Below, in pieces: positions 48,478 through 49,712 of a DNA stretch of 64,000 bases. Position 1 is the first letter of the stretch. Each line of letters begins with the position of its first letter. The DNA is from Meiothermus sp. GTDB lineage: Bacteria > Deinococcota > Deinococci > Deinococcales > Thermaceae. The stretch is from the NCBI RefSeq assembly GCF_026004075.1, contig NZ_BPIK01000002.1, positions 496,001 through 560,000 on the forward strand, written 5' to 3'. The notes under the pieces were generated by a model. The model did not search any database. It was given only the letters and a program-made list of their open reading frames with translations, and was not told the DNA's origin. Both the position numbers and the translations under genes were made by a program.

Positions 48478-48507
48478 TTGACCGGGATTTCGGTCGGGTG
48501 ATAGGCT
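48478..48507 (+). promoter_or_regulatory. pheST promoter
   Basis: -35 TTGACC (48478-48483), an 18-base spacer and -10 TAGGCT (48502-48507). Transcription should begin near 48514, about five bases before the leader-peptide ATG. Confidence 0.65.
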
Positions 48508-48518
48508 AACCCACAAGT

Positions 48519-48545
48519 ATGGCCAGGAGGTGGTTTTTTGGCTAG
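48519..48545 (+). CDS. Phe-codon leader peptide of pheST
   Basis: Eight-residue mini-ORF MARRWFFG with tandem TTT TTT phenylalanine codons (48534-48539) and TAG at 48543-48545. It begins just after the predicted transcription start without a Shine-Dalgarno sequence, like the lysine leader in this window, and is directly followed by a chain of competing hairpins before pheS. The tandem codons for the amino acid charged by the downstream synthetase are the main evidence. Confidence 0.7.
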   Translation: MARRWFFG

Positions 48546-48623
48546 GCCCGCGGGAGACGCAATTCTCTCGTGGGCGGCCTGTGTGCCGCCCACCGCGTTT
48601 GGGTAGACTGGGCGAGGTTTGTT
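48546..48623 (+). promoter_or_regulatory. Predicted attenuator of pheST (competing hairpins)
   Basis: Four segments can pair as in classical attenuators. 1:2 pairs GCCCGCGGGAGA (48546-48557) with TCTCTCGTGGGC (48564-48575), 12 pairs with two G-U. 2:3 pairs GTGGGCGGC (48570-48578) with GCCGCCCAC (48585-48593), 9 perfect pairs. 3:4 pairs CCGCCCA (48586-48592) with TGGGCG-GG (48609-48617, one bulge), followed by TTTGTT. A ribosome held at the Phe codons would cover segment 1, favour 2:3 and prevent 3:4. The U-tract is short, so 3:4 could instead mask the adjacent GGAGG. Confidence 0.6.
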
Positions 48624-48632
48624 GGAGGTCGC

Positions 48633-49712
48633 ATGGATATTGCAGCAGCGCTAGAAGAAATCGGCAATGCGCCCAATTTGGAGAGCCTACAAAGCTTGAA
48701 GGTGCAGTACCTGGGCAAAAACGGCCGGGTGACCCAGGAGATGAAAACCCTGGGCCAGCTCCCACCCGAGGAACGCAAGGAAAAGGGCCGGGTGCTGAAT
48801 GAGTGGAAGCGGGCCCTCGAGGAGGCGCTGGAGGTGCGCGAAGCCCAGCTAAAGGAACAGGCCCTGCAGGCCCGGCTCGAGCAGGAAGCCCTGGATGTCT
48901 CGCTGCCGGGCTACGCTTTTCCTTCAGGGGGGCTGCACATCACCAGCCTGATTATGCAAGAGCTGGTCAACATCTTTCGCAGGCTGGGTTTCAGCGTGGT
49001 GGAAGGCCCCGAGGTGGAGAGCGAGTTCTTCAACTTCGACGCCCTGAACATGCCTGAGTGGCACCCTGCGCGGGACATGCAGGACACTTTCTGGGTTGAG
49101 TTCAATCGTGCGGCGTCCGCTTCCAAAGAAGCGTTTAACATTCAGGGGCCTTTTGGCGAGGATGTGACCGATCTGGGCGGGGCGGTGCTGCGCACCCATA
49201 CCTCGGGCATGCAGATCCGCTACATGATCCAGCACACCCCGCCGTTCAGAATTGTGGTGCCGGGTCGGGTGTTCCGCTACGAACAGACCGACGCCTCGCA
49301 CGAGGCCATGTTCCACCAGCTCGAGGGCCTGGTGGTGGGGCCCAGCATCACCATGGCCGATCTCAAAGGAGCCATCAGCGAGCTGGCCCGGGGGCTTTTT
49401 GGCAAGGAGGGCAAGGCCCGCTTCCAGCCCACCTTTTTCCCTTTTGTGGAGCCAGGGGTGCAGTTTGCCATGTGGTGGCCTGAGCGTCAGAAGTGGCTCG
49501 AGCTGGGCGGGGCGGGCATGGTGCACCCCTACCTGTTCAAAGCGGTGGACGACTACCGCGAGCGGCAGGGCCTGCCCAGGGCCTACCAGGGCATGACCGG
49601 CTGGGCTTTCGGGATGGGGGTCGAGCGGCTGGCCTTGCTGCGCTACGGTATCCCCGATATCCGCTACTTTTACCAGAACCGACTGAGCTTTTTGCGGCAG
49701 TTTAGAGGCTAG
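48633..49712 (+). CDS. pheS: Phenylalanyl-tRNA synthetase alpha subunit
   Basis: Catalytic subunit of the alpha2-beta2 synthetase that charges tRNA-Phe. ATG 48633 ([20 protein letters not shown]) has GGAGG four bases upstream. The N-terminal coiled coil (about 10-90) is followed by the class II core: motif 1 region [20 protein letters not shown], motif 2 [20 protein letters not shown] and motif 3 [18 protein letters not shown]. At 359 residues it is close to the usual size. pheT follows 12 bases later. Confidence 0.97.

Follow-up and report, generated by a model that had tools for sequence, protein, structure and literature searches.

A probable phenylalanine leader-peptide attenuator ahead of pheST in Meiothermus and related Deinococcota

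Described attenuators and the pheST leader of Meiothermus

Leader-peptide attenuation is a classical regulatory mechanism, and pheST is among the operons attenuated in E. coli. The enterobacterial element, pheL, resembles the locus described here in that a short Phe-rich leader ORF precedes pheST and ribosome stalling is the presumed signal; the present leader differs from pheL in being 7-16 codons long, leaderless or nearly so, and in carrying Phe at its end, with a first hairpin at or near the stop codon, no conserved four-segment scheme and no Rfam match. A leaderless arrangement is found in trpL of Sinorhizobium meliloti, whose transcript has its 5' end at the leader AUG and gives rise to an attenuated RNA (PMC7298713); trpL senses Trp, however, and belongs to another phylum with no evident homology to this locus. 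Leader peptides with regulatory codons have also been described for trp, trpS and leuS in Actinobacteria, and thus include aminoacyl-tRNA synthetase genes, but that study found no Phe element and its attenuators use antiterminator/terminator pairs (PMC1262725). T-box leaders likewise control aminoacyl-tRNA synthetases through tRNA charging and are said to exist in the Thermus/Deinococcus group (PMC3766115); the locus here has instead a Phe-codon ORF that is presumably translated, and neither the window nor any of 20 relatives matched the T-box covariance model. The amino-acid attenuators catalogued in Rfam have been described as probably gammaproteobacterial in origin (PMC3766115). No pheS attenuator from Deinococcus-Thermus was found in the non-subscription literature searched, and the full texts of PMC4833913, PMC3766115 and PMC1262725 mention none.

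The window, the whole 64,000-nucleotide stretch of Meiothermus DNA that was analysed, contains on its plus strand pheS (48633-49712; Phe-tRNA ligase alpha subunit, NCBIfam equivalog TIGR00468, 306 bits) and pheT (49719-52079; beta subunit, TIGR00472, 644 bits), with a GGAGG Shine-Dalgarno site for pheS at 48624-48628. Upstream, on the same strand, a promoter is formed by TTGACC (48478-48483) and TAGGCT (48502-48507) with an 18 nt spacer (promoter span 48478-48507); the ATG of a mini-ORF lies 11 nt past this -10 at 48519. The ORF (48519-48545; ATG GCC AGG AGG TGG TTT TTT GGC TAG) encodes the near-leaderless peptide MARRWFFG, in which the tandem Phe codons TTT TTT (48534-48539) are the predicted sensor codons. 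Both the promoter and the mini-ORF had been reported by the first-pass annotation and were recovered as it described them. Tandem Phe is rare among such short frames: the two strands of the whole window together contain 367 ATG/GTG mini-ORFs of 6-12 codons, and FF occurs in just 4 of them. TTT makes up 48% of the Phe codons in the window, and TAG accounts for 15 of its 47 stop codons.

An Rfam search of the window gave no match at the leader; the sole matches, both at other places, were to 16S rRNA and to a c-di-GMP-II riboswitch. When the window was searched together with 20 relatives the leader again had no match above the gathering score, the amino-acid leader families included, and relaxing the threshold to E <= 5 returned two weak unrelated matches only. 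The riboswitch (14316-14401, minus strand, 63.7 bits) apparently lies 5' of an ORF for a subtilase-like secreted protein (12846-14378). The interval 45405-46276 carries transposase-like ORFs of 129 and 153 aa in two different frames and is probably an insertion sequence that is either split or frameshifting.

Conservation of the leader in Thermaceae and beyond

The DNA 5' of pheS was compared in 50 Thermaceae genomes, divided into genera g1-g3 and the Thermus-like g4/g5. The element is present in all 21 genomes of g1-g3 with readable DNA 5' of pheS, and the leader ORF is intact in each. Its first codons vary freely (MARRWFFG, MVGGWFFS, MTGRWFFR, MWAWRWFFR, MRRGGRFFR), TTTTTT and TAG are invariant, and lengths differ by whole codons only; a TANNNT -10 sits 6-11 nt ahead of the leader start codon in 21/21. 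This pattern bears on the idea that a hungry-codon frameshift or stop readthrough carries the ribosome through the terminator. The T6 run, the codon for stalling and a hairpin spaced as at frameshift sites would suit such an event, but a ribosome shifted to -1 would run straight into a stop in most Thermaceae and none of the alternative frames stays open in every species, so that this explanation is extremely improbable.

The Thermus-like genera g4/g5 show no such leader in 28/28 genomes (L023-L050), an absence that, from the sequences compared, looks like a clean loss. The same 28 loci carry a -10-like TATNCT a few nt 5' of a likely leaderless pheS start.

Downstream of the leader and its hairpins, TAGACT (48604-48609, plus strand) is a candidate -10 of a second promoter; it is present in 12 of the 21 Thermaceae and may provide pheST in these with an unattenuated promoter. 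A good -35 is absent at the TAGACT of the window, and the corresponding site in L021 reads TAGGCT. The hexamer TAGACT is also the leader-promoter -10 of L013-L016 and L018; in L014 the sequence is GGTAGACTGGGC.

A covariance model (R1) built from Thermaceae rows alone was used to search 111 genomes of the phylum, among which no Deinococcus was recognised. Matches beyond Thermaceae were weak; nine fell in the sister family f4, all directly 5' of pheS, and the other weak matches, in Thermus-like and f5 genomes, did not lie directly 5' of pheS. Leaders were found ahead of pheS in 21 Thermaceae, 13/13 f4 genomes examined, 4 f3 and about 31 f5 genomes, 70 in total, and are present in most genomes examined from families more distant than f4; enterobacterial pheL, as a positive control, was found by a similar scan in five gammaproteobacterial loci. 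Phe is the residue common to the 70 leaders, which are 7-16 codons long across the phylum sample, and stands 2-3 codons ahead of the stop in most, although the 100% figure is circular in that the first leader finder required Phe. An unbiased recount of 74 upstream regions, run with no Phe requirement, gave a leaderless-type mini-ORF with Phe as second- or third-last codon in 60/74; the next residue, Thr, reached 12.

The f4 leaders end in FFF or FF (MRTCGFFFSN, MAAFFFP, MRGLFFG). Those of f3 and f5 (for example MRSLLASPFIT, MRSPLASESFTR and MTRTSPLDVAGFVT) have Phe as their constant feature, usually 2-3 codons ahead of the stop. The SPF peptide was considered as an arrest motif in f3/f5 and rejected: many f5 leaders carry ESF, QPF, ARF or AGF, and so Phe alone is kept. 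The start codon lies 7 nt past the -10 in 23 of 31 f5 leaders, a spacing from which these are predicted to be fully leaderless. TTT is used in the leader even where the pheS of a GC-rich species has none (L119, 0/22; L120, 0/18), which suggests selection for the wobble-read codon in the leader.

Many f5 leaders (L101-L106, L206-L216) start with AGAAGC...GGCTTCG, whose GAAGC and GCTTC pair into a small hairpin within the leader ORF. Family f2 (L094-L096) departs from the fixed spacing: its leaders are longer, RSPF or SSPF stands well away from the stop, and a U-run terminator lies 5' of pheS.

Two hairpins between the leader and pheS

Hairpin 1 of the window (48546-48575, plus strand) has 12 pairs, between GCCCGCGGGAGA (48546-48557) and TCTCTCGTGGGC (48564-48575), and begins immediately past the leader stop codon, 6 nt beyond the second Phe codon. 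Hairpin 2 (48570-48593, plus strand) is a candidate terminator of nine perfect pairs, GTGGGCGGC (48570-48578) with GCCGCCCAC (48585-48593), as the first-pass annotation had seen, and shares sequence with the 3' arm of hairpin 1. A short U-tract, TTT, follows 4 nt past the stem at 48598-48600 (plus strand). Folding of the 45 nt that follow the Phe codon gives z = -3.6 for the window and a mean z of -3.9 over 21 Thermaceae. In 19 Thermaceae rows 99% of cells are paired in hairpin 1 and 95% in hairpin 2, far above slid versions, although cells from related genomes are not independent events and the counts are to be read accordingly; hairpin 2 also has UA to CG double changes. Over the Thermales (Thermaceae and f4) hairpin 1 shows compensatory changes in 4 consensus pairs, and in f5 two hairpins and nothing else make up an unforced RNAalifold consensus, in which 9 of 16 pairs show compensatory changes. 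The distance from the last Phe codon to the start of hairpin 1 is 6-11 nt, mostly 8, where the lower bound of 6 nt was imposed by the ribosome footprint; this onset coincides with the leading edge of a ribosome that has the Phe codon in its A site.

The first-pass annotation had read these segments as a textbook attenuator in which the 1:2, 2:3 and 3:4 pairings exclude one another, with hairpin 2 as the antiterminator and 3:4, followed by TTTGTT, as the terminator. Every segment of that scheme can be drawn in the window and its 2:3 helix is the nine-pair stem. The alignment of relatives, which had been named as the comparison able to refute the proposal, bears out conserved Phe codons and covarying hairpins 1 and 2, but not the 3:4 helix: the best pairing that this arm finds further downstream is equalled in 39% of shuffles for the window and in 7-86% for relatives, several of which have no D segment. 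Hairpins 1 and 2 are real and conserved, whereas 3:4 is no better than shuffled sequence. In addition, CTTTT stands past hairpin 2 in most Thermaceae, and hairpin 2 corresponds in f3 and f5 to a canonical terminator with a long U-run. The textbook scheme is for these reasons very unlikely; hairpin 2 is better read as the terminator hairpin, and the hairpin just past the stop codon as the sensor.

The annotation had also named the short U-tract as its weak point, and rightly: the sequence 3' of hairpin 2 is CGCGTTTGGG. TTTT occupies this place in most Thermaceae, the run is short or poor throughout the Thermales, and L081 has none. Efficient intrinsic termination in the Thermales is accordingly unproven, with TTT as the only U-tract in the window and nothing in L081. 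This weakness favours a post-transcriptional role, in which leader and hairpins would set mRNA stability or pheS translation, through reinitiation or site occlusion, rather than termination. The distance from leader stop to pheS start is only ~67-132 nt, and reinitiation past leader peptides, with Deinococcus-Thermus as the group where it peaks, has been proposed (PMC4833913); the reported reinitiation distance, however, is ~10 nt, and canonical terminators stand at the homologous place in f3 and f5. Control through the GGAGG site, the fallback of the earlier reading, is not supported, as no conserved pairing sequesters GGAGG; such control would have the wrong sign too if hairpin 2 frees the site. 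A post-transcriptional role is considered improbable.

A third pairing, proposed by RNAalifold, joins GGUGGU in the leader (48529-48534, plus strand) to the GCCGCC of hairpin 2 (48585-48590) when the leader is free of ribosomes; it is possible in 19/19 Thermaceae rows, with a U-G to C-G change in two. Equilibrium folding of the window with the ribosome represented as a block gave hairpin 2 a probability of 0.01 with no ribosome, which goes together with this leader pairing, and of 0.93-1.00 with the ribosome at Phe versus 1.00 at the stop. As the last two values are nearly equal, pairing equilibria alone give no regulation by Phe, and some kinetic or steric effect has to be invoked.

A probable ribosome-operated attenuator and what it may mean

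The Phe leader-peptide attenuator put forward by the first-pass annotation is strongly supported by the codons, frame, near-leaderless start and hairpins, whose conservation, with covariation, extends over several families; very probably, on these comparisons, pheST is controlled by a ribosome-operated attenuator that senses charged tRNA-Phe. The transcript would begin at, or a few nt 5' of, the leader AUG, and the ribosome would load on an almost leaderless mRNA. With ample Phe-tRNA it would reach the UAG and cover or melt hairpin 1; hairpin 2 would then fold and part of the polymerases would stop past it. With scarce Phe-tRNA the ribosome would stall at the tandem Phe codons, hairpin 1 would form right at its leading edge and block the folding of hairpin 2, and pheST would be transcribed. 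We infer that the leader is translated, that termination occurs past hairpin 2 and that hairpin 1 blocks it, either through shared bases (CCY:GGG, in Thermaceae), through lost mRNA slack between ribosome and RNA polymerase, or through both. An attenuated RNA, if any, would end near 48598-48601 and not at 48623, where the earlier reading had placed it.

How hairpin 1 would act may be read in two ways. In Thermaceae the two hairpins compete, because bases of hairpin 2 also form the outer pairs (CCY:GGG) of hairpin 1; this extension and its overlap are kept across Thermaceae loci. Hairpin 1 with its CCY:GGG extension could therefore be an antiterminator, and hairpin 2 the terminator, in a base-pair switch confined to Thermaceae and decided by folding kinetics, while relatives use pairings not yet seen; hairpin 1 is transcribed and folded first. 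On the other side, equilibrium prefers hairpin 2 in both ribosome states, and hairpin 1 lies at the same place in f4, f3 and f5 with no overlap. The switch is less likely than not. Overlap of the hairpins was seen in Thermaceae only; in f4, f3 and f5 they abut or are separate, both can form, and no mutually exclusive antiterminator was seen in these families. Together with the failure of equilibrium pairing to separate the ribosome states, this means that the outcome would be set either by the order of folding or by a steric action of hairpin 1.

The steric alternative would be a phylum-wide type of attenuator that works with no antiterminator, the ribosome position being read by mRNA slack rather than by alternative pairing; it is put forward tentatively and is rather unlikely. 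A hairpin that forms only ahead of a Phe-stalled ribosome would use up mRNA, and the terminator hairpin could not fold; the loss of slack would also serve the relatives with non-overlapping hairpins. In cleanly parsed species the two machines would be ~19-30 nt apart if both hairpins formed while the ribosome stood at Phe, and ~37-51 nt apart once it had reached the stop and melted hairpin 1. These figures are exploratory: they have no null model, take 8 nt as the distance between hairpin base and active site, and use automatic hairpin parses, which get hairpin 2 wrong in several rows of f5. In reported structures collided ribosome-polymerase complexes have a distance from P site to active site of <= 37 nt, the closest functional one being ~28-29 nt (PMC11711091), and collided expressomes have been reported to be incompatible with terminator hairpins (PMC7858274); the modelled distances fit the slack reading.

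Phe-codon leaders thus stand 5' of pheS across Deinococcota; the leader gene is near-leaderless, and in most families the two hairpins have no bases to compete for. This arrangement raises a testable question, namely whether a stalled ribosome can block a terminator with no antiterminator; the leader would serve as a natural reporter of Phe-tRNA, and Thermus would offer a case of what appears to be clean loss.
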